A stretch of 21,235 bases of DNA. It comes from a virus. How positions within the stretch are numbered: the first letter of the stretch is position 1; each line of letters begins with the position of its first letter. Position numbers and translations under genes: made by a program. The notes beneath the pieces are model-generated. The model was not told where the DNA came from. It searched no databases and worked only from the letters and a program-made list of their open reading frames with translations. This document shows, in pieces, positions 6,012-21,235 of the stretch. The stretch spans positions 1-21,235 of the IMG/VR virus record IMGVR_UViG_3300018424_000308. One strand, 5' to 3'.

Positions 6012-9000
6012 TATTCCTCATTTCGATTATATTTTCAATTGCCTGGAAAACAGTTTCAGGTGTTATTAATTTAGTACATTCAAACATTCTATCAGTTCCT
6101 TTCTGATCTGGACACCAAATCCAATCTCCTGGATCAAATTTGTGTCTATTATAACAACTATTGCAAGTTTTATCATTAAATATTCTAATGCATTTTGAGG
6201 AAAATTCTGACGAAGGATTACTAAATCCTGAAATTAATATGACATGTTTATTTAAAGACCATGCCACCCAAGATAAACCAGATCCTAATCCTATAAAAAA
6301 TTCTGCATCATTAATTGTTGCGATAGTCTCATTCAAAGTTCTTCCATGTCTAGGTATAGCATTGCTTGGACTAAAATTGAAATGATTACCCTGTCCAAAA
6401 GAACCGTGTTTATCTACACATACAACATCATACCCTTTTTCCTTTAAAAAGTCAACTACTTTTTCCCATGCTCCAGGATTATTCCAATATTTTGCCTGTG
6501 CGGTTGATTGTGTACCTATTACAACATAAGGTTTTTTCAGTTCGGTCTCTTTTTCGAAGACCGTTATTTTTGAAGGTTTTTCTTCCCATTCGGATAAACC
6601 TAATATACTAGCACACAATTTTTGTAAAGACACTTCTTTACAATCAACAGGAGATAAATCACATTTCTCAAAAAATCCAATTCTATAGGAATGATCAAAA
6701 TCATCAAATCCCGAATTTGGGTTTTCAAATTTAATTTCTGGATATTCGTTTTCAAATAATTCATTGAAAAATGTACTACAAATAACTTTACACCCATGTT
6801 TTTTTCTAAATTCTTCAACTGGTTGCATCCATGCCAAATTATCGCCCAATGCCGATGAATCTAGCCAAATGAATACTTTTTTATCTTTTAAATCCATCTT
6901 ATATTCATGAACCAACTCATTTGTTTTAGAATCATAAACTTCAATTTTCCATGGAATAAAATATGATAAAGTTGATGCGGCCCAACAATTATTTGCTATG
7001 GTAACCTGATAATGCACAAAATCTGTTGTACTATCTCTAAAAACAACATTAAATTCTTTATTGACATTTCCTTTTATATTGATATATGGATTAGGTTTTA
7101 CTGTAATATTGAAAAAAGTGCGATCAAAACTTTCCGAATTTAAATTTTTCAAATCATTACTATATGTGTAAATTAATCTATCTTTCATCTCTAAAGGAAC
7201 ATTAGATTTCAAATCTTTTGCTAAGTAGTAGTATTTTTCCAATTCTAGAAAAATATTATCCCAATCTCGTTCGATTGCATAATTTCTGGCAAGTTTTGAA
7301 TTCAGATCTAAATCTTGTAAATGGGTTTTTATTCCATTTACTATATCATCTACATCCCTTGTGCATTGATAAAAACCAGGCACTTCCATTTGATCTTGTA
7401 AAGTTCCTACAACAGGTAGTCCACACGCCATTCCTTCTAATACGCCTAAACATGGTTGACCCGTTTCCATAGAAGCCGGATGTATTATAATATCCTGACC
7501 TGCCAAAATATTTCTAAGATCTTTTTTAAGAACGTTGCCTAATAAATTAATTTCTATATCATTTTTACACTGGTCATAAATATCGTAAAAGACTTTATTG
7601 TAATCTTGGTGTATAGAATCTGCACCAATTATCGTTATTGGAAATCCTAATTTATGAGCGGCTAAAATTGCTAAATGAAATCCTTTTCTATCATCTCCGC
7701 CTCCAACACAAACTAATCTATTTCCTCTTGTTTTATTAATATCAGGATAGTAAAAATTAGTATCTACACCATGGTGTAAATGTTTTAACTTATCTTTAGC
7801 ATCGAAAAAATTTATAAAATTATTAATAGGCGTTAAACTCAAAACTGAATTATCAATGGTCGATTTTATTTGATTATAAGAAAAACTATATTTTGCTTGA
7901 AGACCCACCCAAGCATCATGAACCGTATGAATGAAAGGAACAAATTTATTTTTTAACGTGTCATTGAAATTGGCCATATGATTGTGAAAAATATCAGTTT
8001 TTTCAAGATCTGTTTGATTTATTTGATCTAACCACATCAATTTCACATCATGGCCTCTTCTTTTTGCGGCATTTATATATTGTCCAACTACTTCTTCAAC
8101 ACCACCATATCCTTTTGGAGGAATTTCAATGCCACATCCTGGATGTATTTGAACAATATTTAATTTTTGAAAATTTGATATTTGATTTATCGGTTTTACT
8201 TCACTTTTTACTTTTTGAACTATTTTAGGTTCATGTATGATTTCAATTTTTTTATCATTTTGTATTTTTGATCGTGTTACCATAAAAAATCTATTATCTT
8301 GACAGAACCATCTAAACTGATAACCTTCTTTGCTCATAACATCGACAATATTGTCAATAACATTGTAATTAGTTCTATTATTTCTCATCAAATGAGTATT
8401 ATTACAAAATATCACAATCTCACAAGAAATTTTATTTTGATTCTCGATTTTTTGTACGATGTTTTGTATGTCATGTTCTGTATCGTCTAAAGAAACTTTT
8501 ACATAAAAATAATTTATATTTTCAAATAAATCAAAGTTTACAATGTGATCAAAAAATAATTTTTGAAGTTTATCTTTTTTTACCATATCGTAATTAAAAT
8601 TACAAAAACAAATGTTTTGTGCATTTTTTTCATGATTTAAAAATGATGTATATGTTGATTCTGCCGCATCATAAATTTCATCGAAATATTTAATATTTCT
8701 AGGATATTCTAAAATAAAGTTTTCTCTTCTTTTTTTAGCATCAATCGCCAATTGGGCTTCACCTCTTGTATTCCAATTCCTGTGATTTTCAGAATCTTCA
8801 TGATCTCTCGCTAAATAAGTCGTTCTAGGTATTGTGATCCATTTTCCTCTTTCTTCCATCATCAATAACCACTGTCCATCATTAGAGGAACAGGCATCAC
8901 CATCTTTATGCACTGGAAATTTTAGTCCCGGCAAATTTCTGAAAATTCTAAGATAACCGAAAATATTAGTTCGATGAGGCCAAAGTTTTTCAAATCCTTC

Positions 9001-9459
9001 CAAAAAAGAATCATTATCCGTGGTCATATAAACATTATCTCTAAAATTATCAAGATATTTTTTTTCAGAACTTGTAGGAAAAAAGTCATTATATTTGTTT
9101 GCATTAAAATGCATCAATACACTTTCTGGAAATAAATTAAAATAATAATTTATTTTTTTAAGAGTATTTGGTAATAAAAAATCATCAGAATCAATATGAC
9201 AAACTACATCACCAGTTGCATGGATTTGAGGATTCCACCAAATTTGTTTTTTATATTCCGGTTTAATAATTTTAATTCTTTGATCATTTTTAGAAATTTT
9301 ATTAATTATATTTAAAGTACCATCGGTCGAAAAATCATCAGAAATCAACCACTCCCAATTTTCGTACTCCTGTGAGAAAATAGATTCAGCAGTTTCTTCT
9401 AAATATTTTTCAGCATTATAGCAAGAAGTAATCAAAGATAATTTCAATTCATCGTACAT
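6004..9459 (-). CDS. three-domain glycosyltransferase: GT2 + GT4 + TibC/Aah-like O-heptosyltransferase
   Basis: An 1151-residue fusion. Residues 1-230: GT-A family 2 domain (LSLITSCYNAEKYL; SDDFS at 40-44; DSDDF at 90-94). About 430-760: GT-B family 4 domain (IHPGCG, PPKGYGGVEE, LGNVLKKDLRNIL, and a METGQPCLGVLEGMACG donor-site region). About 800-850: beta-rich linker module. About 860-1151: bacterial autotransporter heptosyltransferase (BAHT) domain, with WLDSSALGDNLAW, QSTAQAKYWNNPGAWEKVV, GLGSGLSWVAW, ISGFSNPSSEF and the four-cysteine metal 'finger' C1099-x2-C1102-x13-C1116-x11-C1128 (CNSCYNRH, WIWCP, FECTKLITPE). Known TibC and Aah transfer heptose from a nucleotide-heptose to Ser/Thr of adhesin repeats. 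This protein could build and attach a short glycan on a protein. Its start ATG overlaps the upstream TAA by one base and has the ribosome site AAAGGTGA. Confidence 0.87.
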   Translation of the reverse strand: MYDELKLSLITSCYNAEKYLEETAESIFSQEYENWEWLISDDFSTDGTLNIINKISKNDQRIKIIKPEYKKQIWWNPQIHATGDVVCHIDSDDFLLPNTLKKINYYFNLFPESVLMHFNANKYNDFFPTSSEKKYLDNFRDNVYMTTDNDSFLEGFEKLWPHRTNIFGYLRIFRNLPGLKFPVHKDGDACSSNDGQWLLMMEERGKWITIPRTTYLARDHEDSENHRNWNTRGEAQLAIDAKKRRENFILEYPRNIKYFDEIYDAAESTYTSFLNHEKNAQNICFCNFNYDMVKKDKLQKLFFDHIVNFDLFENINYFYVKVSLDDTEHDIQNIVQKIENQNKISCEIVIFCNNTHLMRNNRTNYNVIDNIVDVMSKEGYQFRWFCQDNRFFMVTRSKIQNDKKIEIIHEPKIVQKVKSEVKPINQISNFQKLNIVQIHPGCGIEIPPKGYGGVEEVVGQYINAAKRRGHDVKLMWLDQINQTDLEKTDIFHNHMANFNDTLKNKFVPFIHTVHDAWVGLQAKYSFSYNQIKSTIDNSVLSLTPINNFINFFDAKDKLKHLHHGVDTNFYYPDINKTRGNRLVCVGGGDDRKGFHLAILAAHKLGFPITIIGADSIHQDYNKVFYDIYDQCKNDIEINLLGNVLKKDLRNILAGQDIIIHPASMETGQPCLGVLEGMACGLPVVGTLQDQMEVPGFYQCTRDVDDIVNGIKTHLQDLDLNSKLARNYAIERDWDNIFLELEKYYYLAKDLKSNVPLEMKDRLIYTYSNDLKNLNSESFDRTFFNITVKPNPYINIKGNVNKEFNVVFRDSTTDFVHYQVTIANNCWAASTLSYFIPWKIEVYDSKTNELVHEYKMDLKDKKVFIWLDSSALGDNLAWMQPVEEFRKKHGCKVICSTFFNELFENEYPEIKFENPNSGFDDFDHSYRIGFFEKCDLSPVDCKEVSLQKLCASILGLSEWEEKPSKITVFEKETELKKPYVVIGTQSTAQAKYWNNPGAWEKVVDFLKEKGYDVVCVDKHGSFGQGNHFNFSPSNAIPRHGRTLNETIATINDAEFFIGLGSGLSWVAWSLNKHVILISGFSNPSSEFSSKCIRIFNDKTCNSCYNRHKFDPGDWIWCPDQKGTDRMFECTKLITPETVFQAIENIIEMRNNE

Positions 9460-10469
9460 TAATCACCTTTAAAATAAATTGTTGTTGTTTGTTTAATATA
9501 TTGGTACAATTTTTCATCATTTAAGTCAAATGTTTTAATTAATTCATCATTCATGAAAACTTTAATAATTTTACCTTTTTCAAATTTAGCCAAATTAAAA
9601 CAACCTTTGTAAAAAAAAGAATCGGAGATAATATTGTCATCGACTACAATTTTCATATTCATATCAATAAAATGATTTAAATGAAACACATAATCGTATT
9701 GTTCATTTCCAATATAAAGCGCTATCCAAGGTTTAGTTTCCTCTATATGCATTCGATCTTGTTCAAATTGTATTTTATCAAGATTTGGAACAAAATCTAT
9801 TAATTCAACATTTGTATTTTTATTTTCATTAAATTTTGTTAAATTCAAAATGTATGCAAAAAATTCTTCGCCTGGTCCAAACCCATGTCTCAATGTTATT
9901 TCTTTCTGTAATTCCAAGTCTAAATATTGGGAAAAACAATTAAACATATAATCAACATTACCTGACATTAAGCGTGTTGTGACTTGCATTTTTCCATGTG
10001 TTTCTATATCATTTTCAGTAGACCAATGATAAAAAACACCATCCAATTTTTTAGATAATATTTTGCTTTCATTGAGTATTAATTCGTGCGGACTGTGTAT
10101 CAATCCATCATAATCCATAATATGAATTACCTTTTTTCTCAAAATTTTAGCATAATTAATTCCTAATAACAATAATCTAAAAACAGCAAAAGTTGTATTA
10201 TGGCCATGAAATTGTTGCGTTGATAAGTCAAAACCATCAGTGAAATATGTTATGTAACCTAAAAATTTAGGATCAGTTAAAACTATATTATCTTTATCAT
10301 AGACATAATAATCGACCTTTTCCTGTATTTGCTTCGAGGCAGGTGTATGAGTTGTTAATATTATTTCATATCCGAAAAATTTGACATTATTAATCAATTC
10401 TAGACAACATTTTATTCTATCAGGAGTTGATAAATGTGCGTGTATTAAAACAATAGCGTCAGAGGACAT
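9459..10469 (-). CDS. putative GT-A-type glycosyltransferase
   Basis: A 336-residue protein with a Rossmann-like N-terminus (AIVLIHAHLSTPDRIKCC, then FGYEIILTTHTP) and a DxD-type motif, IMDYDGLI, around residues 118-124. This suggests a GT-A nucleotide-sugar transferase; I do not recognise a named family. It is translationally sandwiched between the two large glycosyltransferase fusions. It overlaps the preceding gene by 11 bases, and its TAA shares a base with the next ATG. In-frame GTG 10481 and ATG 10478 are alternative starts. ATG 10469 was chosen because AAGGTGA lies eight bases ahead of it, while the others sit on or next to that ribosome site. The acceptor is unknown. Confidence 0.62.
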   Translation of the reverse strand: MSSDAIVLIHAHLSTPDRIKCCLELINNVKFFGYEIILTTHTPASKQIQEKVDYYVYDKDNIVLTDPKFLGYITYFTDGFDLSTQQFHGHNTTFAVFRLLLLGINYAKILRKKVIHIMDYDGLIHSPHELILNESKILSKKLDGVFYHWSTENDIETHGKMQVTTRLMSGNVDYMFNCFSQYLDLELQKEITLRHGFGPGEEFFAYILNLTKFNENKNTNVELIDFVPNLDKIQFEQDRMHIEETKPWIALYIGNEQYDYVFHLNHFIDMNMKIVVDDNIISDSFFYKGCFNLAKFEKGKIIKVFMNDELIKTFDLNDEKLYQYIKQTTTIYFKGD

Positions 10470-13134
10470 AAGTGACATCACCTTCTTTTAGCAAGGTAGT
10501 CCCATCCTTATAAGATTTATCAAGATATGAATCACCTGAACATTGTATAGAATATGGATTTTTTGTTATTCCCCCAACCAACTCATTTAAAATATTATTA
10601 TTTAACCACAAATCATAAGTGTCCCATTTAGTTTCTTCAAATTTATTCAAAAAATAATCTCTAGATGTTGATGGAACCAAGTAACAATGAGCTTCAGACA
10701 TTCTGTCCGTAGTATCAAAGTATATATTTTTATGATTATAGTGCCATTCAACTATTCTTTTACCGAAATTCATATATCTCAAATCATAATATTTCAAATC
10801 ATCGAATCTATCAATAATTTCCTTATACACTTCAGTAATAGGTTTAATAAAAATAGCATCGCATTCACAAAATAAAACTCCATCTACATCATCTTTTAGA
10901 TGTTCTTGCATTGCAATTCTATGCGCCAGGTAATTTCCATAATGTGCAGGTGTTAATTTATAATGTCCGGGTTCCATTTGAACATCATCAGGTCTTGCAC
11001 AACTCTCTATAGGAGGCATTTGATTGTATTTACCATTTATCATTTGAACATATTCCCAACCAGCATAATCAACCAGTTCTTTCAAATGTCTAATAGATTC
11101 TTTTTCTCTGCTACCATTTACATCAACTAACATATGTACAACTTTCAATTTAGGAATTCTCCAAGCCCACAAATTTCCCAAACCTCCATCAACTATAGCG
11201 TCATCTTTTTTCACTTCATAACCTAATTTTTCTAATCTGGTTATTAATTCATTTGATCTTTTAATTCTCGCCTCGACTGAATTATCATTATTAAAAAAAT
11301 CATGAACTTCCATAGTTATTTTTCTAATTTTATACTTTAACAAATCATCGGATATTTGAGGAAAAATATTCCATTCAGCGCCTTCACAATCCAATTTTAA
11401 AACATCCACTCTCTCTAAATTATTATTATTCATGAATGTGTCAAAAGTCATAGTTCTAACAGTTTCAATTTTTTTCTTACCCAATGTTGTTGGATTACTT
11501 TCATCAGTATTAAAACTATCATAAAAAGAATTTACTGATGATGATCCTAAAACTTTAAATTCTGCCGTTCCGTTTTGATCAGATAAGGCAAAATTAAATT
11601 TTTTAACTTGTTCATAACCTTTTAAATTTTTACACAAAATGTCAAAAGTTTCTTTTGCAGGTTCAAATGTAAAAATGTTTTTAGCACCTTTATCTAAAGC
11701 ATATAAATCAAATAATCCATAATGTCCACCGACATCCACAACAGTGTCCCCTTCTTGAATTTTTACATCTTTATAACATTCTTGATAAAAAACCTCATAC
11801 GCTGTAAACCAAGATGCTGGATCATCACATATACCTTCAATATTTTTAACAATACCTTTAACTGTTATATCCTTGACTTGGTTTGAAAAATTAAACGTTT
11901 TTTGATATATTAAATGATGATCATTCATTAAACTTTCAGAAGATAGTGTAGAAAAATAATCTTTGGGAGCATCATATATTCTAACATCTATACCACCTAA
12001 TAAATCTGGAGAACAATTGGGTTGAGTCCAAAGATCGGGTCCAAACACATTTGTTCGATAGACTAATAAATTTGTTTTGGTATCGAATAAACATAACAAT
12101 TTATTTTCCAATAAAGAAAATACCTCACCAGTATGAACAGATATTTTAGATCCTTCCGTCAAATTGCACTTTATTGGACCATCATCAATATTCAATTTTC
12201 TTAATATTTTTAATCTATTAATTTCGAAATTTTCTTTCGTCAAATAAGTCACCTTATCATCTAATTTGTTTTGATAAGAATCTAATTTATAAATTAAGGT
12301 TGGCATATTCCAACTCAATGCTTCTTTAATCGATAATGGATTAGTTTCTTTATCGTGAGTATTTCCTTGAGATGTGAATAAAAATAGATCCATACACGAA
12401 TAAAAATTATCAACATCCGATCTTTCACCCCAAATTTTACAATTTTCAGGTAAATCATTGATCAAGGGCTCCCAATAAGATTGAAAATTTGGCGCCATGT
12501 TGCCAACAAAATGAAATTCTATAGGGTAATCAATTAAAGATTTTGCATATTCAATAATTTCTGATTGATTTTTTCGTGGCGTAAACAATCCAACATTCAA
12601 TACATGATGTTTTTTTGGATCTAAGTTCAAAAATTTTAATCCGTCATTTCTATTTTTTTCATCTTTTAAGACATTTGGATATTCAATAACACTACAAGGA
12701 ACACCTAAATTTCTGAATAATGAAGCTTGATTATCACTGCAAAATAAAAATTTATCAGGCAAAAATCTTTTATTGGAGGGGTCGAATGAGGAATCATGTG
12801 ATGTTTCATAAATTAAATAATTTCTATCGGAATTATAAATTTTTTTTGTTATATCATCATTCATAAAAAATTCTGGCATCTCTTCAAAATGAATAATATT
12901 AGGTTTTATTTCATCTATATATTTAAAAATATTTTCTTTTTCTTCTCCTAAAGTATAAACAGAATTATTTAAAAGATCTATTATTTTATTTTTTTGTACT
13001 CTATAGATTCCATAGTCATTATATTCAATAACATAAATAGTATAAAAATCTTTTAACAATTCAATTTTTTTGAGAAGATATTGTGGAGCTCCTCCAGTGG
13101 ATAAATGAGGAGTAATGTATAAAATTTTATTCAT
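10459..13134 (-). CDS. three-domain fusion: GT4 glycosyltransferase + FkbM methyltransferase + GT-A-like domain
   Basis: An 891-residue fusion. About 1-300: GT4-like domain (ITPHLSTGGAPQYLL; NVGLFTPRKNQ; LSIKEALSWNMPTLIY near the donor site). About 340-390: beta-rich module resembling the linker of the 6004-9459 protein. About 440-645: FkbM-family SAM methyltransferase (VVDVGGHYGLFDLY near 465, FEPAKETFDIL, VDVLKLDCEGAEW near 577-585, TMEVHDFF). About 660-891: a further transferase-like domain (VVHMLVDVNGSREKES; FCECDAIFIKP near 755-765, a DxD-like metal site). FkbM enzymes usually O-methylate sugars. The start has AGGATG as ribosome site (13141-13146), and a consensus promoter lies about 36 bases upstream of the ATG. 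It is the first gene of a long co-directional operon running down to gp32. Confidence 0.82.
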   Translation of the reverse strand: MNKILYITPHLSTGGAPQYLLKKIELLKDFYTIYVIEYNDYGIYRVQKNKIIDLLNNSVYTLGEEKENIFKYIDEIKPNIIHFEEMPEFFMNDDITKKIYNSDRNYLIYETSHDSSFDPSNKRFLPDKFLFCSDNQASLFRNLGVPCSVIEYPNVLKDEKNRNDGLKFLNLDPKKHHVLNVGLFTPRKNQSEIIEYAKSLIDYPIEFHFVGNMAPNFQSYWEPLINDLPENCKIWGERSDVDNFYSCMDLFLFTSQGNTHDKETNPLSIKEALSWNMPTLIYKLDSYQNKLDDKVTYLTKENFEINRLKILRKLNIDDGPIKCNLTEGSKISVHTGEVFSLLENKLLCLFDTKTNLLVYRTNVFGPDLWTQPNCSPDLLGGIDVRIYDAPKDYFSTLSSESLMNDHHLIYQKTFNFSNQVKDITVKGIVKNIEGICDDPASWFTAYEVFYQECYKDVKIQEGDTVVDVGGHYGLFDLYALDKGAKNIFTFEPAKETFDILCKNLKGYEQVKKFNFALSDQNGTAEFKVLGSSSVNSFYDSFNTDESNPTTLGKKKIETVRTMTFDTFMNNNNLERVDVLKLDCEGAEWNIFPQISDDLLKYKIRKITMEVHDFFNNDNSVEARIKRSNELITRLEKLGYEVKKDDAIVDGGLGNLWAWRIPKLKVVHMLVDVNGSREKESIRHLKELVDYAGWEYVQMINGKYNQMPPIESCARPDDVQMEPGHYKLTPAHYGNYLAHRIAMQEHLKDDVDGVLFCECDAIFIKPITEVYKEIIDRFDDLKYYDLRYMNFGKRIVEWHYNHKNIYFDTTDRMSEAHCYLVPSTSRDYFLNKFEETKWDTYDLWLNNNILNELVGGITKNPYSIQCSGDSYLDKSYKDGTTLLKEGDVTYVL

Positions 13135-13210: not shown

Positions 13211-14359
13211 ATGGCAAATAAAAACAGACCATTAATATGGAATTCAACACTCAAGGGTCTTAAAGAGTTAACCGACAGACAATTAGAGACATTGGTATAT
13301 TTAGTGCAGGCAAAATATGCTGAAAAACTTAAAAATACATCAACAGCATATCATGGACAAGTCGTGTTGTCCAGCACTTCACCGGGAGCAGGATGGTCCA
13401 ACTTTGGCATAGCGGAAGACCATAGACGAAAAGCTGTAACCTATGGTTACGTATTAGATGATAATACACCCGATACTTTTGGTACAGGAGGTTTAGATTT
13501 AATGAACTTCACAGGAGATACCGCAACAACTCAATATGAACCTAGAGTCAAGTTTAATTATCACCAACTTTCAAAAGAACTAAGTACACCTTCTCAGCAA
13601 ACAGCAAATGCAGATGGATATACACATTTCACAACAAATATGAGCCCTGCAGGATTAATACCGGCGGGAAATGACATGGATACAGTTATAAATGCAATTA
13701 CAAAAGAAGTTTGTAAAGAAATGAAAACAGGAAATGGTATAGGAACTTATTACGTAGGTCTAGACACTGATACAACACCAGGAACTTTCAAAGGCACTTT
13801 TGAAAAAATTGGAGATTTTTTTCAAGATACATATTCATCATTTGCAAATCCAACAGTAACAAATTTAGGATCATCTGGTCAAAATTTTGGTTCTGCAGTC
13901 ACAGGAGGAGCGTTACCTACTGGAACGGAAACCTTAGGTAATAAATATTCATTGTTTATAAAAACAGGTTTAGGTGATGATTTCAATTTAAATACAACAG
14001 ATAGACTATTTGATAATGTCGCAAAAATAAATGGCACTGAAATAAATTTAATGGAATTTGATACCGCAGTAAATAATGATGCTACAATGCTCAGTAGATA
14101 CGCTGGATTAGATGACATGATTGATAAAATTATTTTACCAGCATTAACAAATGATTCTACTCCGACATATGCCATTCAAAAAGACAGTAAACCATCATCT
14201 AAAATCTTTAGAGGATATTTTGAAGATTCTTATCTATCAGATTCTAATACTTTTGATTTCAGACTGACAGCAGGAACTACATATGTTTATCAACAATTGG
14301 ATATACCTACTGGATCAAATTTCAGTATTAAAGCGCTTTATTTGAAAATAGCTAATTAA
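13211..14359 (+). CDS. putative virion structural protein A1
   Basis: A 382-residue protein that I cannot place in a named family. Its N-terminus (LKGLKELTDRQLETLVYLVQAKYAEKL) matches that of the gene at 15023-16054 (LKSFKELSDDQLEILSYTVRKKYASLL). More matches follow, such as LSRYAGL with LSRYNGI and TGNGIGTYYVGL with TGDRVGSQYFAL, so the two are full-length paralogues. The rest is rich in Gly, Thr, Ser and Asn with short beta-prone segments (LTAGTTYVYQQLDIPTGSN near the end), typical of exposed virion proteins such as fibres or decorations. The N-terminal helical part would be the docking region. The ribosome site is weak (ATAAGCA before ATG 13211). A second gene type (B1) follows after a nine-base gap with a good Shine-Dalgarno sequence. 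Confidence 0.55.
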   Translation: MANKNRPLIWNSTLKGLKELTDRQLETLVYLVQAKYAEKLKNTSTAYHGQVVLSSTSPGAGWSNFGIAEDHRRKAVTYGYVLDDNTPDTFGTGGLDLMNFTGDTATTQYEPRVKFNYHQLSKELSTPSQQTANADGYTHFTTNMSPAGLIPAGNDMDTVINAITKEVCKEMKTGNGIGTYYVGLDTDTTPGTFKGTFEKIGDFFQDTYSSFANPTVTNLGSSGQNFGSAVTGGALPTGTETLGNKYSLFIKTGLGDDFNLNTTDRLFDNVAKINGTEINLMEFDTAVNNDATMLSRYAGLDDMIDKIILPALTNDSTPTYAIQKDSKPSSKIFRGYFEDSYLSDSNTFDFRLTAGTTYVYQQLDIPTGSNFSIKALYLKIAN

Positions 14360-14368
14360 GGAAATAAA

Positions 14369-15016
14369 ATGAATGAAGAATTAAATTCAGAAGAATCTTC
14401 AGAAGAACAAGGTATATTTACAAATTCTTCGATAATCGAAAATGATGTCATTGAAGAAACCACATCTGAATCTGAAACTGATAATGTCGTTGAAGAAACC
14501 ACATCTGAATCTGAAACTGATAATGTCGTTGAAGAAGATGAAATAAAAGAGAAAATTTTATATGCACACTATACGAACGAAACTAAATCTGTCATAAGAA
14601 TGTACTATATTGATCCAGAGGATGGAATGCAAAAAACTGGGGTTTGGTCAAATCAAAAAATAATTCCAATCATAAATAGACTATACGAAACATACACTGA
14701 AGAAGATTTGACAAGAAATTACTATTTCATGTTGAAAAAAGAGTATGAATTAAGTGAATCATTAGAAGAATATGTAGAGTTTAAAAAATCTGGTGGTGTA
14801 TACGCAACATCTCTAGCAAAATTAAAATCATTAACTTTAGAAGATTTATTTAAATTGAAACTGGAAATATTTGAAGAAGAAATTGTTCAAAATTCAGAAA
14901 ACATTGAACTGAGATCTTTAATGAGAAAATCTAATGACATTATTGAATTATTACACCATTACTATGTCTTATTAGAAGAAGAAAAAAATAAAACTTTAGA
15001 AATCGTAGAGGAATAA
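14369..15016 (+). CDS. small acidic partner protein B1
   Basis: A 215-residue acidic protein of unknown function. Residues about 1-65 are Glu/Ser/Thr-rich and contain a 13-residue sequence repeated in tandem (EETTSESETDNVV). The remainder is a folded helical region with KILYAHYTNETKSVIRMYYIDPEDG. Near the C-terminus LEDLFKLKLEIFEEE, LRSLMRKSNDIIELLHHYY is shared with the gene at 16064-16561 (VEDLFKIKLNIFDLE, LRSKIRKSKTLPELMHHYY). Both B genes directly follow an A gene, so B is probably a partner or assembly chaperone for A, or a small structural subunit; this is inference. The ribosome site TAAGGA overlaps the A1 stop codon, six bases before ATG 14369. Confidence 0.6.
   Translation: MNEELNSEESSEEQGIFTNSSIIENDVIEETTSESETDNVVEETTSESETDNVVEEDEIKEKILYAHYTNETKSVIRMYYIDPEDGMQKTGVWSNQKIIPIINRLYETYTEEDLTRNYYFMLKKEYELSESLEEYVEFKKSGGVYATSLAKLKSLTLEDLFKLKLEIFEEEIVQNSENIELRSLMRKSNDIIELLHHYYVLLEEEKNKTLEIVEE
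14453..14530 (+). repeat. 39-bp in-frame tandem repeat in B1
   Basis: Two identical 39-base units (14453-14491 and 14492-14530), each encoding EETTSESETDNVV, with a few more matching bases (GAAGAA) after the second. Perfect identity at the DNA level implies a very recent duplication by slippage, or copy-number variation among relatives. It lengthens an acidic Ser/Thr-rich N-terminal tail by 13 residues per copy. Confidence 0.95.
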
Positions 15017-15022
15017 AATCAT

Positions 15023-16054
15023 ATGGCAGTCCGAAAACCTGTATATTTTGATCAAGCATTAAAATCTTTCAAAGAATTATCCGATGATCAATTAGAAATT
15101 TTGAGTTACACTGTGAGAAAAAAATATGCCAGTCTACTTGCAACTAATTCATCTACTATAGGAGGCGCCATATCAGCAGGCGCATCAGCGAGTAATTATA
15201 GTTCAGTAGGCACCATATATGACACAATCACTAACACAACTACAAGAACACAGACCGATAACACATCACCTCCACCAGGTGCGGACAACACTTTTCCCAG
15301 TACATTATCATCTTCGGCACACGTAGAAACTCAAACATCATATAGTTATAGGCAATATATACCATCCAATACCATCACAAACTCGACATTCAATACTTAC
15401 AGTTATTTGGTATGGAATAACACAATAAAAGGTTTGCAATTTGAAAAATCTACAGCAAATTTTTTTGATACGATAATATCAGATTGTGTCAATCAAATTC
15501 ATACCGGAGACAGAGTTGGTTCTCAATATTTTGCATTATCTACACCAACAAATGGAACTTGGGCTGATTTGGGTTTAGTTTATCGAGACACTACTTATTA
15601 CAATACGACAGTAAATTTCAACAGATATGTAAAAACAGCAGATAGCAACGAATCAAATGTATTAAACAATCCTTCGGTATACAAGTTTTTATCTAGATAC
15701 AATGGAATTGTAAATAACAATCCAAAATTAACTGAAATACCAATTAATGATGTTACGAATAATTTAATCACTGATATTTTAGTTAAAATGCTGGAAATTA
15801 GACATCCAAAATATACTCTAACAAGAATTGGTGCGACTAATAGCACAACTGCAGCGACTACAACAATATCATCCTATAGTGGGACAAATCATGGATTTTT
15901 ATATGAAAGATTTGTTTTATCAGGATATACCCTTTCTTCAGTAAGTGGTCCTTCAGGAGGAGTATACACTGGAAGTTATGTTCCGGATAATAATAGTTAT
16001 AGATATAATGTATGGGCACTTGTTCCAAATGGAAATAACACAACTTTACTATGA
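15023..16054 (+). CDS. putative virion structural protein A2 (paralogue of A1)
   Basis: A 343-residue paralogue of the protein at 13211-14359, sharing the N-terminal helical region (KELSDDQLEILSY.VRKKYASLL) and scattered later motifs. After it comes an extreme Ser/Thr-rich stretch: 27 of 64 residues at 43-106, including TNTTTRTQTDNTS and STLSSS. This is a plausible acceptor for O-glycosylation by the neighbouring enzymes or a flexible exposed linker. The C-terminal part is Gly/Tyr/Asn/Ser-rich and beta-prone (SGPSGGVYTGSYVPDNNSYR). ATG 15023 is preceded by GAGGAA at 15008-15013 in the end of B1. The A2 stop falls in the ribosome site region of B2, so the two are tightly coupled. Identity as fibre, neck or decoration protein cannot be decided. 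Confidence 0.57.
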   Translation: MAVRKPVYFDQALKSFKELSDDQLEILSYTVRKKYASLLATNSSTIGGAISAGASASNYSSVGTIYDTITNTTTRTQTDNTSPPPGADNTFPSTLSSSAHVETQTSYSYRQYIPSNTITNSTFNTYSYLVWNNTIKGLQFEKSTANFFDTIISDCVNQIHTGDRVGSQYFALSTPTNGTWADLGLVYRDTTYYNTTVNFNRYVKTADSNESNVLNNPSVYKFLSRYNGIVNNNPKLTEIPINDVTNNLITDILVKMLEIRHPKYTLTRIGATNSTTAATTTISSYSGTNHGFLYERFVLSGYTLSSVSGPSGGVYTGSYVPDNNSYRYNVWALVPNGNNTTLL

Positions 16055-16063
16055 GAGGTGATC

Positions 16064-16561
16064 ATGGAAATAGATATTGAAAATATTGAAATTATTGATG
16101 CTGTACATCCTGATATTTCAGAAAAAAAATTAGTATTGGTAGAATATCTTGATATTGCCGGGTTGACAAAAAGCGTGGCTATTAGTATTGATGACGGCAC
16201 AGATATATCAAAAAAAGTATTGGAAAAATTTTCAGAAGATGATATTGTAAAAAATACCAAAATATTATACGATGAAAACAAAAAGAAAGCAGAAGATTTT
16301 CTGCAGTATTTAGAATGGAGAGATTCAGGAAAAATATCTGCTAATGATATTAAAGAAGTTGAAGTAGAAAAAGAAATGTCACTAGAATTATTGGAAAATA
16401 CGTCTGTTGAAGATTTATTTAAGATAAAACTCAATATATTTGATTTGGAAGAGTTTCAAGAATTTGAAGACCGAGATTTAAGGTCAAAAATTAGAAAATC
16501 AAAAACATTACCAGAACTAATGCATCATTACTATGATTTTCTAGTTAGACAAGATTCGTAA
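16064..16561 (+). CDS. small acidic partner protein B2 (paralogue of B1)
   Basis: A 165-residue acidic protein without the repeated N-terminal tail of B1, but with the same body. It has LVLVEYLDIAGLTKSVAISIDDG in the N-terminal half, EDDIVKN, FLQYLEWRDSGK, then VEDLFKIKLNIFD and LRSKIRKSKTLPELMHHYYDFL. Start chosen at ATG 16064, with AGAGGTG (16054-16060) as the ribosome site. The in-frame GTG at 16058 lies inside that site and is unlikely to be used. It directly follows A2 as B1 follows A1. Its last 31 bases overlap the end of the convergent glycosyltransferase gene on the other strand. Confidence 0.62.
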   Translation: MEIDIENIEIIDAVHPDISEKKLVLVEYLDIAGLTKSVAISIDDGTDISKKVLEKFSEDDIVKNTKILYDENKKKAEDFLQYLEWRDSGKISANDIKEVEVEKEMSLELLENTSVEDLFKIKLNIFDLEEFQEFEDRDLRSKIRKSKTLPELMHHYYDFLVRQDS

Positions 16562-17232
16562 TCATGATCATACTTTAGTATGATATCTAAATTAAACCTA
16601 GTATTCATGAAATGTACCATTTTAATTTGATCGTTAAATTCTCCTGCCAAATAAGCCCAACCAGAAGGATGTTTACAGTTTAAATCTAAATATTCTTCAA
16701 AATATTTAGGTTCATCATAAGTTGAATCGTATCTAAAAAACCAACTATCTGGTAAAAATTTTAATTTTAGTTTTTTGCGCACCATTGTTTCTACAAAAAA
16801 CTGCTCTCCATTAACTTTACCAGTTGTTATTTTATTTTCTAAAAAATAATTCATCCAAAAATTTGGTTTAGACATAAATTCATCGTAAATGTATTTACAA
16901 TCTTTAGGATAATATTTTTGAAATCCCCCATTTAATTTATAATTACCCTTATCAGTATCTTTCCACCAAGAATTAGCAGATAAAAATTCACCTCTTTCGA
17001 TAGGATATTCTATCGCTTCCATATAGTCATTGATGAATAACATATCAATATCAATTACTAAAACCGGTTCATCAATATTCAAATTCATTATTCTCAATTT
17101 ATTCCACTGAAGAATCATTCCATCAATCTCATCTCTAATCCATGTAACTTCACCTAATTTATGATTAATGTATTTTTCTACATCTTCTCCGTACTTATCG
17201 CCTATTCTAACAGCAAATATTTTTGTGCCCAT
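16531..17232 (-). CDS. small DxD glycosyltransferase-like protein (paralogue 1)
   Basis: A 233-residue protein with a GT8-like GT-A layout: N-terminal KIFAVRIGDKYGEDVEKYIN, then VLVIDIDMLF with the DxD pair D61/D63, and WWKDTDKGNYKLNGGFQKY in the acceptor half. The GxKYxxxxV opening is shared with the proteins at 17202-17759 and 18965-19714, marking three diverged paralogues. Start chosen at ATG 17232 (GAGAAG six bases upstream); TTG 17238 is an in-frame alternative. It overlaps the end of the upstream gene by 31 bases and its own end overlaps B2 on the other strand by 31 bases. Donor and acceptor are unknown. Confidence 0.65.
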   Translation of the reverse strand: MGTKIFAVRIGDKYGEDVEKYINHKLGEVTWIRDEIDGMILQWNKLRIMNLNIDEPVLVIDIDMLFINDYMEAIEYPIERGEFLSANSWWKDTDKGNYKLNGGFQKYYPKDCKYIYDEFMSKPNFWMNYFLENKITTGKVNGEQFFVETMVRKKLKLKFLPDSWFFRYDSTYDEPKYFEEYLDLNCKHPSGWAYLAGEFNDQIKMVHFMNTRFNLDIILKYDHDYESCLTRKS

Positions 17233-17759
17233 TCGCAACTTCTCATACTTTCAAAAGACTGGTTAAATAAACAAACAGGATAATTTAATTCTTTTCTATC
17301 AAACATCCAAGACCAGCAAACTTTATCGTATGTTTGATAATCAATCTCTCTGTAAATAAACTCATCTATGCCTCTCCAATATTTCACCCTACTATAATCC
17401 TCATCCTGATAAAATTTATCGTAAATGTGTGACAAATCTCCTACCCACGATATAATTGAAGAATTTAAAGGAGTATGCGCAGGCTGTCTCCACCACGCCT
17501 TAATTACTGTAAAATTCTTACGTAGTAAGGTTTTTATATTGGATCTGATGACTACATCTAAATCAAAAAAAATATATTGTTTATTTTCTTTAAATCTTTT
17601 AAAAATTTTTAATTTATCGTAAACAGAACCTTCTCCATCTGTTATTCCCGAAATCTCATAATCAATATCATCACAATTTTTTTTTATCATATGATTTAGA
17701 TTATCCACCCACCATTGATCATATTTGTTTCCTGTACAAACATATATTATTGTTACCAT
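17202..17759 (-). CDS. small DxD glycosyltransferase-like protein (paralogue 2)
   Basis: A 185-residue protein opening IIYVCTGNKYDQWWVDNLN, with the metal-binding type motif FFDLDVV (D66/D68). A signature WWRQPAHTPLNSSIISW around 89-105 matches YWRDPLSHV...TPLNSSFVAW in the protein at 18965-19714; both also end with CLFNxS. It is shorter than its paralogues at the C-terminus. The ATG (17757-17759) overlaps the preceding methyltransferase-like gene by seven bases, and only a weak AGG lies upstream, so expression probably depends on coupling. Likely a sugar transferase of unknown specificity. Confidence 0.65.
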   Translation of the reverse strand: MVTIIYVCTGNKYDQWWVDNLNHMIKKNCDDIDYEISGITDGEGSVYDKLKIFKRFKENKQYIFFDLDVVIRSNIKTLLRKNFTVIKAWWRQPAHTPLNSSIISWVGDLSHIYDKFYQDEDYSRVKYWRGIDEFIYREIDYQTYDKVCWSWMFDRKELNYPVCLFNQSFESMRSCEWAQKYLLLE

Positions 17760-18385
17760 TGGCCTATAACCATAAATCTAGTGTAATTATTCATTTTCAT
17801 TTTACCTGAATATAAAACTTTTTTAATTTGGTTTTTTTGAATCAATTCTTCTGCTGAATGAACGCAATTAACATGCTCTGGTAAATTAAAATAATTATTT
17901 GATTGTAAAACTAATATAGGCTTGAAAGGATAATCTTTATAAAATTTTTTCATAACAACTACATCTCGCATGTGTTCTGAAGAAGTATTAATAATTAAAT
18001 GTCTTCTTCTGATTTCTTCTCTATCAAAATAATCATCAAATACAGATATTTTATAGTTATAATTAAAAAAATTAGTGTATTGTGCAAATATTTTTTTGCA
18101 AGTTTCATCTAGTTCAAAAAAATCTATTTGATCGATTTTAAATGCAAAATTCAACATTTCGATCAAAGGAAAACCAAACCACCCTCCAATAATTTCTATT
18201 TTAATTGGTACCACAAAATTGCATGTTTTTTCTAATTGTCTAATCATCCAAATTTTAGATTCATGTTGACCTTCGGACACGGAATCAATATAACTATTCA
18301 AATAATTTGGATGATTATTTAATATAAACGATTGAGCTCTAAAATATGGAGAATTTACATATCTATCAAATTCCAAATTCATCAT
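17753..18385 (-). CDS. SAM-dependent methyltransferase-like protein (paralogue 1)
   Basis: A 210-residue class I methyltransferase-fold protein of a type I recall from phages and marine bacteria. It has IEIIGGWFGFPLIEML (SAM loop around 65-71), IDFFELDETCKKIF (acidic residue after strand 2, about 87-100), VFDDYF (about 116-121), then IINTSSEHM (131-139), VLQSNNYF, HVNCVHSAEELI and a YTRFMVIG end. The N-terminal third (EGQHESKIWMIRQL) is a helical cap. It is clearly paralogous to 19731-20465, even at DNA level around the SAM loop. The ATG overlaps the upstream gene as ATGA. The substrate is unknown; adjacency to sugar transferases suggests glycan methylation. Confidence 0.7.
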   Translation of the reverse strand: MMNLEFDRYVNSPYFRAQSFILNNHPNYLNSYIDSVSEGQHESKIWMIRQLEKTCNFVVPIKIEIIGGWFGFPLIEMLNFAFKIDQIDFFELDETCKKIFAQYTNFFNYNYKISVFDDYFDREEIRRRHLIINTSSEHMRDVVVMKKFYKDYPFKPILVLQSNNYFNLPEHVNCVHSAEELIQKNQIKKVLYSGKMKMNNYTRFMVIGQW

Positions 18386-18978
18386 AAATTATCACCCACA
18401 ACCATAAAATAATTTAAATTTTTTTGATCATATTCACGAATCACGGACCATGTCTCTTGGTGTTCAACATTTTTTATGTTGTTTTGACTAATCAAGTCTT
18501 CACAAGAATTTATTGGATTAGGAATGTATAATTTATCATCATCATTACCAATTAAAATAAAATTTCCATTATATATTTTACCTACAGGAAATGTATATTC
18601 ACAATATCTATGAATAAAATTACCTTTTAAATTTAAATCATCAAATATGACATCTTTTCTATAACTTTTTTCTGTCAATTTCATGTTTGAATCATGAACT
18701 ATTTCATCAAAATCAAAAAAATTAAAATTATTGACATTTAAAAAAATTTTTTTAATTAAATATAAATCTAAATCACAAAACCAACTGCATAAAACATTGT
18801 AATCCTGATTATTATCTTCATGATTGCAAAAAATATAATTGTATATTTTATTAATCAAATCCGCATGAGTTTTTCTATAATATCGTTTTCGAATATAATC
18901 ATATTCCCCCATCAATCTTTTAGGACGTTCTATGTTTAGATAATCATAGTTTTTTCGTAGCTTGTCATATTCTATCAT
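18382..18978 (-). CDS. diverged methyltransferase-fold paralogue, possibly non-catalytic
   Basis: A 198-residue protein with the same element order as its two neighbours but altered motifs. NVLCSWFCDLDLYLI (61-75) stands in place of IEIIGGWFG, followed by NFFDFDE, DVIFDDL, FIHRYCEYTFPVG in place of IINTSSEHM, and NFILIGNDDD in place of VLQSNNY. Then come NPINSCEDLISQNNIKNV and YFMVVGDNL at the end. The Gly-rich SAM loop is lost, so SAM binding may be lost or changed. It could be a regulatory partner of the active paralogues or have a new substrate. The ATG at 18976-18978 overlaps the upstream glycosyltransferase gene by 14 bases. Confidence 0.55.
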   Translation of the reverse strand: MIEYDKLRKNYDYLNIERPKRLMGEYDYIRKRYYRKTHADLINKIYNYIFCNHEDNNQDYNVLCSWFCDLDLYLIKKIFLNVNNFNFFDFDEIVHDSNMKLTEKSYRKDVIFDDLNLKGNFIHRYCEYTFPVGKIYNGNFILIGNDDDKLYIPNPINSCEDLISQNNIKNVEHQETWSVIREYDQKNLNYFMVVGDNL

Positions 18979-19714
18979 ATTTCATCCACATATCATAAGC
19001 CCAATCAGTTGTTTCATGCAATTCTATTTGTGTCTCATTTTTCCTAGCCCATGCCTTATGTGATGTATTAAAGAGACAAATTTTATAATTTTCACGAAAC
19101 TCAGTAGGTTTCAAATCATTAGGATATTCGGCACCAATGTTATAGTTATAAACTATTCCTTTATTCCAGAGATTAATTTGATCTTTTCGATAGCATTGAT
19201 AAAATATATACTTATCGAATGATGGATAGGTAAAAAATGCTCTTTCTTTATTTTTTAATAAATTTTCATACATTTCAATACCAACATCATCTTGCCATGC
19301 AACAAATGAGGAATTTAACGGAGTCGTCATAAATGAATAATTTTTAACATGAGATAAAGGATCTCTCCAATAATTCATAATAAATCTCGGTTTATTATGA
19401 TTCATTTCAATTAATTCTGTCAAATCATTTTGAATCAAAATATCAAGATCAAACCATGCCTTTTTGCCTGAAATATTTTTAAAATCATTAAAATAACACA
19501 TTTTTTCAGATGTGAAAATTTTTGTTCTAGGAAATTCAGAGAAATCATCAGGAATTTTATGCACTTCTATATCTTTATATAAACCATAGGGATTGTCGGT
19601 CAAACAATGAAAATTAAACGAATTTTTATAGTTTATAATCAAGGAATTAAATAATCTGTTAACATATTCGGGACCATATTTATTGCCCCATTTTAAACAA
19701 AAAAAATTTGTCAT
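18965..19714 (-). CDS. small DxD glycosyltransferase-like protein (paralogue 3)
   Basis: A 249-residue protein opening FFCLKWGNKYGPEYVNRLF, with KAWFDLDILI as the DxD-type motif (D89/D91). YWRDPLSHV around 115-123 and TPLNSSFVAW at 131-140 are shared with paralogue 2, and YKICLFNTSHKAW lies near the end. It retains the full-length C-terminal region lacking in paralogue 2. The ATG 19714 has GGGAT six bases upstream and lies 16 bases after the preceding methyltransferase gene. Likely an enzyme adding a sugar to a glycan or protein made by this cassette; specificity cannot be read. Confidence 0.66.
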   Translation of the reverse strand: MTNFFCLKWGNKYGPEYVNRLFNSLIINYKNSFNFHCLTDNPYGLYKDIEVHKIPDDFSEFPRTKIFTSEKMCYFNDFKNISGKKAWFDLDILIQNDLTELIEMNHNKPRFIMNYWRDPLSHVKNYSFMTTPLNSSFVAWQDDVGIEMYENLLKNKERAFFTYPSFDKYIFYQCYRKDQINLWNKGIVYNYNIGAEYPNDLKPTEFRENYKICLFNTSHKAWARKNETQIELHETTDWAYDMWMKYDRI

Positions 19715-19730
19715 GAATTGATCCCATCAA

Positions 19731-20465
19731 TTACCATCGACCGATAACCATATAACGCTTATACAATGGCAAATCATATGATCCTGAGTAATATACTTGT
19801 TTGATTTCATTTTTCTCTATCAATTCAGCTTCGGATTCAACACAATTTATATGATCTTTAATTTCTTTATAATCATTCGATTGTATTACCAACATGGGGT
19901 ATTCTGGATAATCCTTATAGTAACTTTTCATTTTTACAATATCCATCATATGTTCTGATGATGTGTTAATTATCATATTTCTACGTCTAAGATCTTTTCG
20001 TTGAAAATAATCATCAAACATAGATATTTTAAATTTAGGTTTAAAATTGTTTATATATTGTGCTAAAACTTTTTTACAGTTATTATCAATTTCATAAAAA
20101 TCTATTTGTTTAATATCAATAAAAGAATCCAAAAATTCAATAAACGGATAACCAAACCAACCTCCGATTATTTCTATGTGTTGAAATTTTTGTATATTAA
20201 TTTTTCTAAGTTCTTCAATGATCCATTTCTTAGATTCATATTGTCCTAAAGAAAGAGAATCATCAAAACTATCCAAATAATCATTTAAGTTATTATATAC
20301 CCATTGTCTAGTCCAATAATATGGTGTATCTCTTTGACCATTTTCGCATTGCGAAATTTTCAACTTAAAATTTCCAATCTTTCTGTTTAAATTACCTATT
20401 TCAATATTGTGGTCTTGTATTTTTAATTTTAAATTAATATACTCATCAATATAACTCATTTCCAT
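19731..20465 (-). CDS. SAM-dependent methyltransferase-like protein (paralogue 2) with N-terminal coiled coil
   Basis: A 244-residue paralogue of 17753-18385. It has IEIIGGWFGYPFIEFL (SAM loop around 100-105), IDFYEIDNNCKKVLAQY, ISMFDDYF, IINTSSEHM, VIQSNDY, HINCVESEAELI and YKRYMVIGRW as the last ten residues. It carries about 35 extra residues at the start (YINLKLKIQDHNIEIGNLN...) with hydrophobic heptad spacing, probably a coiled coil for dimerisation or partner binding. ATG 20465 was kept, with GGAG four bases upstream; ATG 20459 is an alternative with the same site ten bases away. It overlaps the radical SAM gene by ten bases. Substrate unknown. Confidence 0.7.
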   Translation of the reverse strand: MEMSYIDEYINLKLKIQDHNIEIGNLNRKIGNFKLKISQCENGQRDTPYYWTRQWVYNNLNDYLDSFDDSLSLGQYESKKWIIEELRKINIQKFQHIEIIGGWFGYPFIEFLDSFIDIKQIDFYEIDNNCKKVLAQYINNFKPKFKISMFDDYFQRKDLRRRNMIINTSSEHMMDIVKMKSYYKDYPEYPMLVIQSNDYKEIKDHINCVESEAELIEKNEIKQVYYSGSYDLPLYKRYMVIGRW

Positions 20466-21235
20466 TGATCTCCGAATGCATCAAAACCTTTTCCGCATTT
20501 TTGTGCGCAAATCTCTGCCCTACCAAGTTCACAAGATGGTATAAACCAAGATTTCTCAATTCTTTTAAAAAAATCACCTTCAATAATGTCTCTTATAGGC
20601 GTTTCTAAAGCATTTATGTTTTTCAAATCATCTATAAATTTCCAAATCTGATCTTGACCTATTCTATGATATGTCTTATACAATCTACCCGCAGTCCAAC
20701 AACATGGAAAAATTAATCCCTCAGCGGAAATATATATTTCTTTATTTTTTATTGATTTACATACTATGTCAGTTTGATCCAAGTAATTATTAAAACTTCC
20801 ATATTTTTCAATCAAATCTTCATAAGCATTTACACTTTTATTTTGATATTCGATATTAGTAGGGGGTTTGATAACATTTCCTTTTTTTGTTTCTTTTTCA
20901 TTAATTTTATTAAATGTTTGTACCCATCTACCCGATTTCTTTTTTACAAATTCTAGACCGAATAACTTTGCCATTCTTTCAGCATCTTCAACTTGATGCT
21001 CATTATGTTCAAATATTAAAAAAACCCATAAACCTCTACCTCCTGCTTGAGTAAAAGAATCCATCGAATTTTCAACTTTTTTCCAATCAACATTAACTCT
21101 ATATAAATGATTCGTATCTTCCAAGCCATCAACAGAAAAGGTTACTCTACCATGTTTTCCCATTATTTTAGCAAGTTCTTTCCACCACTTTGAGTTTCTT
21201 GTTCCCCCATTAGTAGTCATGTGTAAATATAAATC
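20456..21235 (-). CDS. radical SAM/SPASM-like protein (5' partial)
   Basis: C-terminal part of a probable radical SAM enzyme. The frame is open to the window edge (DLYLH precedes the ATG at 21218-21220), and DLYLHMTTNGG is a typical internal strand of the radical SAM barrel. The start and the CxxxCxxC cluster motif therefore lie outside the window. Counting from that Met, FSVDGLEDTNHLYR (28-41) is a barrel strand typical of the family. The C-terminal cysteines C154, C173, C174 (FPCCW), C230, C238 and C242 fit a SPASM-like auxiliary iron-sulfur domain (EGLIFPCC). SPASM proteins often modify peptides or sugars and cofactors. It is the upstream member of the cassette and overlaps the methyltransferase gene by ten bases. 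Catalytic status cannot be judged without its N-terminus. Confidence 0.78.
   Translation of the reverse strand, partial: DLYLHMTTNGGTRNSKWWKELAKIMGKHGRVTFSVDGLEDTNHLYRVNVDWKKVENSMDSFTQAGGRGLWVFLIFEHNEHQVEDAERMAKLFGLEFVKKKSGRWVQTFNKINEKETKKGNVIKPPTNIEYQNKSVNAYEDLIEKYGSFNNYLDQTDIVCKSIKNKEIYISAEGLIFPCCWTAGRLYKTYHRIGQDQIWKFIDDLKNINALETPIRDIIEGDFFKRIEKSWFIPSCELGRAEICAQKCGKGFDAFGDQWK

Follow-up and report, generated by a model that had tools for sequence, protein, structure and literature searches.

What does a phage do with three glycosyltransferase-like and three methyltransferase-like genes packed into one row? The question is posed by six minus-strand open frames in the IMG/VR virus record IMGVR_UViG_3300018424_000308, whose 21,235 bases, analysed as one stretch, we call the window. 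In order of transcription they encode the putative methyltransferase (MT) MT1, the putative glycosyltransferase (GT) GT1, the methyltransferase-like MT3, and then MT2, GT2 and GT3. A reading made from the letters alone, here the sequence-only reading, had described this order with most genes overlapping, and our open frames agree with it in order and coordinates. It had also proposed repeated duplication within one phage operon and a possible role in building variable methylated glycans for the virion or the host surface, or in modifying another molecule. We find that the unit exceeds those six genes (16,531-20,465), since radical S-adenosylmethionine (SAM) genes lie upstream and a gene pair, F26-F25, lies downstream, and that its function is probably to build a glycan for a virion fibre.

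Gene order and age of the cassette

The cassette is tightly packed. Overlaps occur at five of the six junctions from the preceding radical-SAM gene through GT3: 10 bases between the radical-SAM gene and MT1, 14 between GT1 and MT3, 4 between MT3 and MT2, 7 between MT2 and GT2, and 37 between GT2 and GT3; MT1 and GT1 are separated by 16 bases. Is this arrangement peculiar to the window? An alignment of the MT family used as query yielded 29 loci, followed by the best 80 out of at least 573 viral stretches, whereas MT1 alone against viral contigs, and tblastn with MT1 and GT1 against phage records, returned nothing. With re-fetched copies removed, 85 distinct viral contigs carry an MT gene, 52 of them together with MT3. 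On viral contigs holding both members of a pair, GT1 adjoins MT3 in 50 of 50 cases, MT3 adjoins MT in 48 of 52, MT adjoins GT2 in 37 of 43 and GT2 adjoins GT3 in 17 of 21; counted over clusters of MT proteins at 90% identity (n = 29), the same adjacencies number 29, 26, 20 and 14. Radical-SAM genes, up to ten of them, are present in the fetched stretch of 46 of the 52 MT3-bearing contigs.

In a joint GT tree, GT3 forms one clade (support 100/100) and the window's GT1, GT2 and GT3 each group with genes from the same position in other phages; the three lineages are thus older than the divergence of these phages. The free MT tree does not place MT1 and MT2 as sisters, yet their union is not rejected (approximately unbiased test, p 0.078), so that MT1 would be either an older copy or a gene acquired from a relative; a recent tandem duplication of the two is disfavoured by the free tree, though the same test leaves it standing. 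On gene order and trees, we regard the cassette as an old conserved operon of many marine phages and set aside the proposal of recent, repeated duplication. MT-MT tandems occur in 13 contigs, and in the L012-L018 group the two MTs form sister clades (95/90), which looks like a late tandem duplication. Two loci filed under Chloroflexi and Acidimicrobiaceae metagenome-assembled genomes, L033 and L034, look like phage contigs and are probably mis-binned; L033 holds the whole cassette with F25-F26, and L034 the cassette end within a phage-like gene row.

Could unrelated transfer genes simply have accumulated at random in a hypervariable island? Many loci do carry other gene sets, as do the 33 contigs without MT3, many of which resemble the cultured phage Mosig, and the accessible part of PMC7029224 describes the island as hypervariable. 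However, the order is fixed across the 29 MT clusters and the three GTs are orthologous lineage-wide. The marks that the sequence-only reading had assigned to such accumulation, paralogues scattered over different distant lineages and an unconserved order, appeared neither in the trees nor in the order counts, and we find this explanation hardly credible.

The transferase families

GT1 (249 amino acids (aa), positions 18,965-19,714), GT2 (185 aa, 17,202-17,759) and GT3 (235 aa, 16,531-17,238, with a TTG start and an ATG 6 bases in) are homologous. GT1 and GT2 share 27% identity over 148 aa (E 5e-5), and profile-profile comparison joins GT1 to GT2 and GT2 to GT3 with probabilities of 98.7 and 95.5, the direct GT1-GT3 match reaching 15 only. 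Apart from that weak link, pairwise and profile matches bear out the claim that the GTs and the MTs of this operon are two homologous sets. G-KY is found in all three GTs and TPLNSS in GT1 and GT2, as had been described; the longer form G-KY----V, attributed to the whole set, is confined to GT1 and GT2. Within the GT1-GT3 families, K71, D89 and D91 (DxD motif) are invariant in 33 of 33 rows. The PHROGs family phrog_1962, 'glycosyltransferase', matches 18 of the 33 rows (best E 3e-15), with E values of 0.006 for GT1 and 0.005 for GT2; GT8 of CAZy/Pfam (PF01501) matches none of them, and searches of the PDB with the GT profiles gave no usable kin. The conserved DxD suggests glycosyltransferase-like proteins of the GT-A type.

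MT1 (244 aa, 19,731-20,465), an extra copy before GT1 with a 35-residue N-terminal extension, and MT2 (210 aa, 17,753-18,385), the copy in the conserved MT3-MT-GT2 position, are 54% identical (E 1e-74). The MT family alignment, which includes both, retains G67 in 33 of 33 rows, G71 in 31 and D93 in 32. The AlphaFold model of MT2 has a predicted local distance difference test (pLDDT) score of 93.6, and Foldseek found 854 PDB matches to it at E<=0.001, the 50 listed being methyltransferases or methyltransferase-fold enzymes; the nearest viral models are uncharacterised phage proteins. MT1 and MT2 are thereby predicted to be class I SAM-dependent methyltransferases, with a Rossmann-type fold, a glycine-rich motif I and an acidic residue after strand 2. 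No methyltransferase family of Pfam, NCBIfam or PHROGs matched above its curated cut-off or at E <= 0.001: MT1, MT2 and MT3 have no methyltransferase match in Pfam or PHROGs, MT2 and the MT3 of L012 have none in NCBIfam, and 21 MT rows compared with Pfam gave weak matches only, to Methyltransf_11 in one (E 0.039) and to Spermine_synth in two (best E 0.031). A family found in at least 573 viral stretches is unnamed in the libraries searched. Long charged N-terminal extensions, probably coiled coils as judged by eye, occur in MT1 and in the MT right after MT3 in L003, L005 and L012; they are missing from MT2 and from the second MT of tandems.

MT3 (198 aa, 18,382-18,978) stands apart. In its profile it is clearly related to MT (hhalign probability 97.7, E 2.3e-12), its AlphaFold model (pLDDT 84.5) matches class I methyltransferases in Foldseek, and the pocket keeps its acidic residues (D91 in 28 of 29 rows, E127 in 29 of 29); the PDB search with the MT3 profile gave no usable kin. 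The first glycine of motif I, however, is kept in 2 of 29 MT3 rows, with alanine or cysteine in the other 27, against 33 of 33 in MT. These counts are from an alignment of 29 of the 31 non-redundant rows, L035 and L074 being left out. The models and motif counts indicate a methyltransferase fold that has lost the glycine-rich SAM-binding loop. GGWFG and IINTSSEHM, which the sequence-only reading ascribed to all the MTs, are accordingly missing from MT3 and confined to MT1 and MT2; all three do share the F/YMV(I/V)G end.

Linkage to the F26-F25 pair

What would such a cassette act upon? The plus strand of the window carries, at 13,211-16,561, two tandem copies of a gene pair: F26 copy 1 (382 aa, 13,211-14,359), F25 copy 1 (215 aa, 14,369-15,016), F26 copy 2 (343 aa, 15,023-16,054) and F25 copy 2 (167 aa, 16,058-16,561), the last overlapping GT3 tail to tail by 31 bases. 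All were recognised by iterated hidden Markov models (HMMs), which gather 71 F26 and 70 F25 members. The window's F26 copies are 22% identical and its F25 copies 31%, with a conserved C-terminal FKLKL..FE motif in F25. F26 proteins, of about 325 aa, have a median Ser+Thr content of 23% (26% in copy 2), against 8-11% in the cassette families, and in L145 and other loci T4-type neck genes are the family's neighbours. We consider F26 a candidate fibre-like virion protein and F25 its small partner.

In 55 of the 85 contigs the pair is found at most five genes away from the cassette, and 54 of these 55 arrangements are convergent. A reverse search, started from an F26 profile blind to GTs and MTs, added 56 loci in which four or more genes are available beyond F25, after removal of five loci on contigs already seen; L143 and L195 share one contig. 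With HMM labels assigned at E 1e-3 and no further score floor, the F25 side of these loci holds a GT in 50 of 56, an MT in 47 and a radical-SAM gene in 42, while the opposite side of F26 holds none of the first two in 60 loci and a radical-SAM gene in 2. Only five loci (L132, L140, L145, L151 and L153) have none of the three beyond F25. A mere border effect is made less likely by loci in which the cassette has flipped and stayed attached: in 7 of 55 it runs in the direction of F26-F25, and in five loci F25 and a GT overlap by 4-8 bases. An NAD-dependent sugar epimerase gene (PF01370, E 4e-27) stands between F26 and F25 in 30 loci. In four loci without the cassette, T4-type neck genes follow F25 directly, which places the pair among virion genes, and a VrlC-related gene (family F33) lies behind F26 in L027 and L031; neither VrlC nor the neck gene gp14 was found in the window by the searches made.

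F26 occurs in five of seven cassette-bearing records examined (not in G001 and G011) and in none of five cultured phages without the MT family. The first F26 profile missed the Mosig type, which a wider profile detected; the homologue there is Mosig_00097 (MT647606, 72,526-73,446). Wherever a GT or MT gene converges on F25 (70 junctions), the two 3' ends overlap, by 8 to 125 bases in our simple gene calls.

Linkage to a fibre gene would also be expected if the cassette altered lipopolysaccharide or another host surface glycan and so blocked other phages, the fibre and the receptor change co-evolving. Such remodelling of the host surface is the published interpretation of the GTs in the pelagimyophage host recognition cluster, in the accessible part of PMC7029224. 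Yet no membrane span of the flippase or lipid-linked-transferase type, defined as a mean hydropathy of 1.6 or more over 19 residues, was found in any member of MT3, GT2, GT3 or the radical-SAM families rS3 and rS0, and the threshold is reached by only 5 of 137 MT and 2 of 88 GT1 rows. Gtr-type serotype conversion uses a membrane flippase and a membrane-anchored transferase, and no such hydrophobic protein is seen among the cassette families. In several loci, moreover, the cassette forms one tight same-strand row with F26-F25, with virion genes as neighbours. Action on the host surface is the main rival to a virion target, and we hold it to be quite possible, if rather doubtful. A glycan-type function, as the sequence-only reading proposed, is supported; between the two targets it named, gene linkage fits both, and the lack of cassette membrane proteins together with the tight F26-F25 arrangement tilts the balance towards the virion.

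Radical-SAM genes and other neighbours

Upstream of MT1, on the minus strand, the window ends within a radical-SAM gene (20,456-21,235; 259 aa of the 3' part), the orthologue of the 'rS3' gene that flanks the cassette in other phages. Its matches to Pfam Radical_SAM (E 0.0025) and SPASM (E 0.009) fall below the curated cut-offs, its match to phrog_21308 (radical SAM) has an E value of 1.6e-15, and it is 65-70% identical to full-length copies of 346 aa in L012, L014, L018 and L020. The upstream arrays of related loci ('rS0') include twitch domain-containing radical-SAM proteins, NF033640, two copies scoring 285.6 bits (L018) and 422 (L004) against a cut-off of 170; rS3 is of a second type that falls short of this cut-off, its full-length orthologues in L004 and L012 scoring 36.2 and 34.9 bits. 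In L063, on a 150-kb phage contig (G002), 18 twitch-family matches occupy 28-65 kb and end at a GT1-MT3-MT-MT-GT2 set.

SPASM- and twitch-type radical-SAM enzymes often act on peptides. Might the radical-SAM, GT and MT proteins serve to mature or cross-link a peptide and to decorate repeats in F26? Several peptide maturases are among the weak NCBIfam matches of rS0 and rS3, and some F26 proteins (L005, L007, L010) have aromatic repeats of the QYTGQY type. Such repeats are restricted to a minority of F26 rows, however (an insert there in 2 of 17), and we think this very improbable.

Other neighbours in related loci include carbamoyltransferases and a sulfotransferase, and GT8-like genes in Mosig and L186 match PF01501 near its cut-off. 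Carbamoyltransferases also act in nucleoside pathways, and roles in modifying nucleic acids and small molecules are known for phage GTs and radical-SAM enzymes. The cassette could hypermodify phage DNA, RNA or a small molecule, its GTs and MTs acting on a nucleobase or cofactor; GTs for DNA glycans are cited in the accessible part of PMC12619734. Hypermodification does not predict the tight linkage to F26-F25, nor the sugar epimerase and aminotransferase genes, and seems improbable to us.

A possible glycan pathway

We propose that the cassette serves T4-like marine phages as a conserved module for assembling and decorating sugars. Soluble cytoplasmic transferases would build a short glycan, the three DxD-type GTs adding sugars in succession and the class I enzymes MT1 and MT2 methylating them. 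MT3, encoded just before MT2, would most likely be a non-catalytic partner, only MT2 binding SAM in the complex, and the upstream radical-SAM enzymes would alter the sugars or the precursors of these. The Ser/Thr-rich, fibre-like F26, made with its partner F25, would be the likeliest acceptor, as the nearest protein that could be coated before assembly; the virion fibre would then be glycosylated before it leaves the cell. Neighbours with sugar roles count in favour, namely a DegT aminotransferase and the GT8-like gene in Mosig and the carbamoyltransferases and sulfotransferase of related loci. Homology, the MT and MT3 folds, the gene order and the F26-F25 linkage are observations, whereas the enzyme activities, the partnership of MT3 and the part of F26 as fibre and acceptor are inferences. 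Taken whole, with MT3 as partner and F26 as acceptor, we give this proposal close to an even chance.

Several observations weigh against it. No Pfam glycosyltransferase family matches any of the 33 GT1-GT3 rows. F26 has no match in PHROGs, in the PDB or, above chance, in Pfam, so that it is called a fibre on the strength of its location and composition. The cassette and F26 are not neighbours in the L012-L024 group: they are about 43 kb apart in G002, and the 177-kb record G001 of that group gave no F26 match. The counts overstate independence, since cassette-bearing loci supplied the seeds of the F26 search and many of the loci are closely related. Finally, a cassette that changed the host receptor bound by the fibre could also produce the linkage.

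A bolder version would have radical-SAM arrays edit the sugars that GT1-MT3-MT-GT2-GT3 assemble and methylate on the fibre protein, a dead MT3 steering its active neighbour. We think such a radical-chemistry glycan factory unlikely, if conceivable; it would mean that a swap of modules re-coats the fibre while the fibre protein stays unchanged.

In marine T4-like phages, GT and radical-SAM genes are usually catalogued as unconnected auxiliary genes. The GT, MT and radical-SAM genes described here make up a single ordered unit linked to a pair of virion genes. Should the fibre be the target, abundant ocean phages would make unusual virion glycans of their own, with a bearing on host range and on phage-receptor contests in SAR11-type hosts, and the puzzling radical-SAM arrays of these phages would be given a place.

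Comparison with known systems

A cultured relative is the Pelagibacter phage Mosig EXVC030M (MT647606), in which MT, GT3-like, GT2-like and radical-SAM genes adjoin F25-epimerase-F26. Its MT is about 28% identical to MT2, no MT3 was detected in it, and further genes there encode a DegT aminotransferase, a carbamoyltransferase, a GT8-like protein and a nitroreductase. Since a phage with a related locus is in culture, the proposal can be tested.

The host recognition cluster of pelagimyophages, T4-like marine phages, is an island between VrlC and the neck gene gp14, where tail fibre genes are accompanied by glycosyltransferases and radical-SAM cassettes; the accessible part of PMC7029224 names neither the GT1-MT3-MT-GT2-GT3 order, nor such a methyltransferase family, nor an F26-F25 linkage, and favours modification of the host O-chain. 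In chlorovirus PBCV-1, A064R and A061L bring together viral GTs (one of GT-A type, with DxD) and class I SAM methyltransferases that together assemble the terminal part of a virion glycan and methylate it; A064R differs in being one fused protein that serves the N-glycans of a capsid protein, and the accessible part of the source mentions no radical-SAM enzymes (PMC9614988). No chain of A064R was among the PDB matches listed for the cassette GT profiles, and no kinship is evident. Mycobacteriophages Che8, Corndog and Myrna likewise decorate their own capsid and tail proteins with phage GTs, although on other hosts and, in the accessible part of PMC12363180, with single GTs and no methyltransferase or radical-SAM array named.

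Campylobacter phages CP220 and CPt10 are T4-related and carry 11-12 radical-SAM genes in exchangeable modules (PMC2853527, as far as accessible), fewer than the 18 twitch matches of L063; a T4-like marine genome with 12 such genes is described in the accessible part of PMC5332604. The MT family is absent from CP220, its radical-SAM proteins fall below the twitch-family cut-off, and neither 'glycosyl' nor 'methyltransferase' appears in the text of PMC2853527. Our literature search, which covered few subscription papers and no preprints, found no description of the ordered set or of the F26-F25 link.

Other features

The T4-type late promoter motif matches the window twice against five matches expected by chance, none of them near the cassette. 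Genes were called simply as longest open frames, so some starts will be wrong.

A relative of MT occurs in metagenome-assembled genomes of Kiloniellaceae and Rhodospirillaceae (L036, L037, L039, L041, L042), next to oligopeptide ABC transporter genes (by Pfam in L036, L039 and L041). A guess that the Kiloniellaceae relatives adjoin pseudaminic-acid genes was wrong, the neighbours being these transporter genes; the setting might point to a different substrate.

Across the F26-F25 quartet from the cassette, the minus strand of the window holds a second sugar-transfer block at 6,004-13,134. It encodes a protein of 1151 aa with GT2-family, GT1/GT4-type and GT9-type domains, a 340-aa protein without a family, and one of 891 aa that combines a GT1-type domain with an FkbM methyltransferase domain, so that sugar genes lie on both sides of the window's fibre-like genes.

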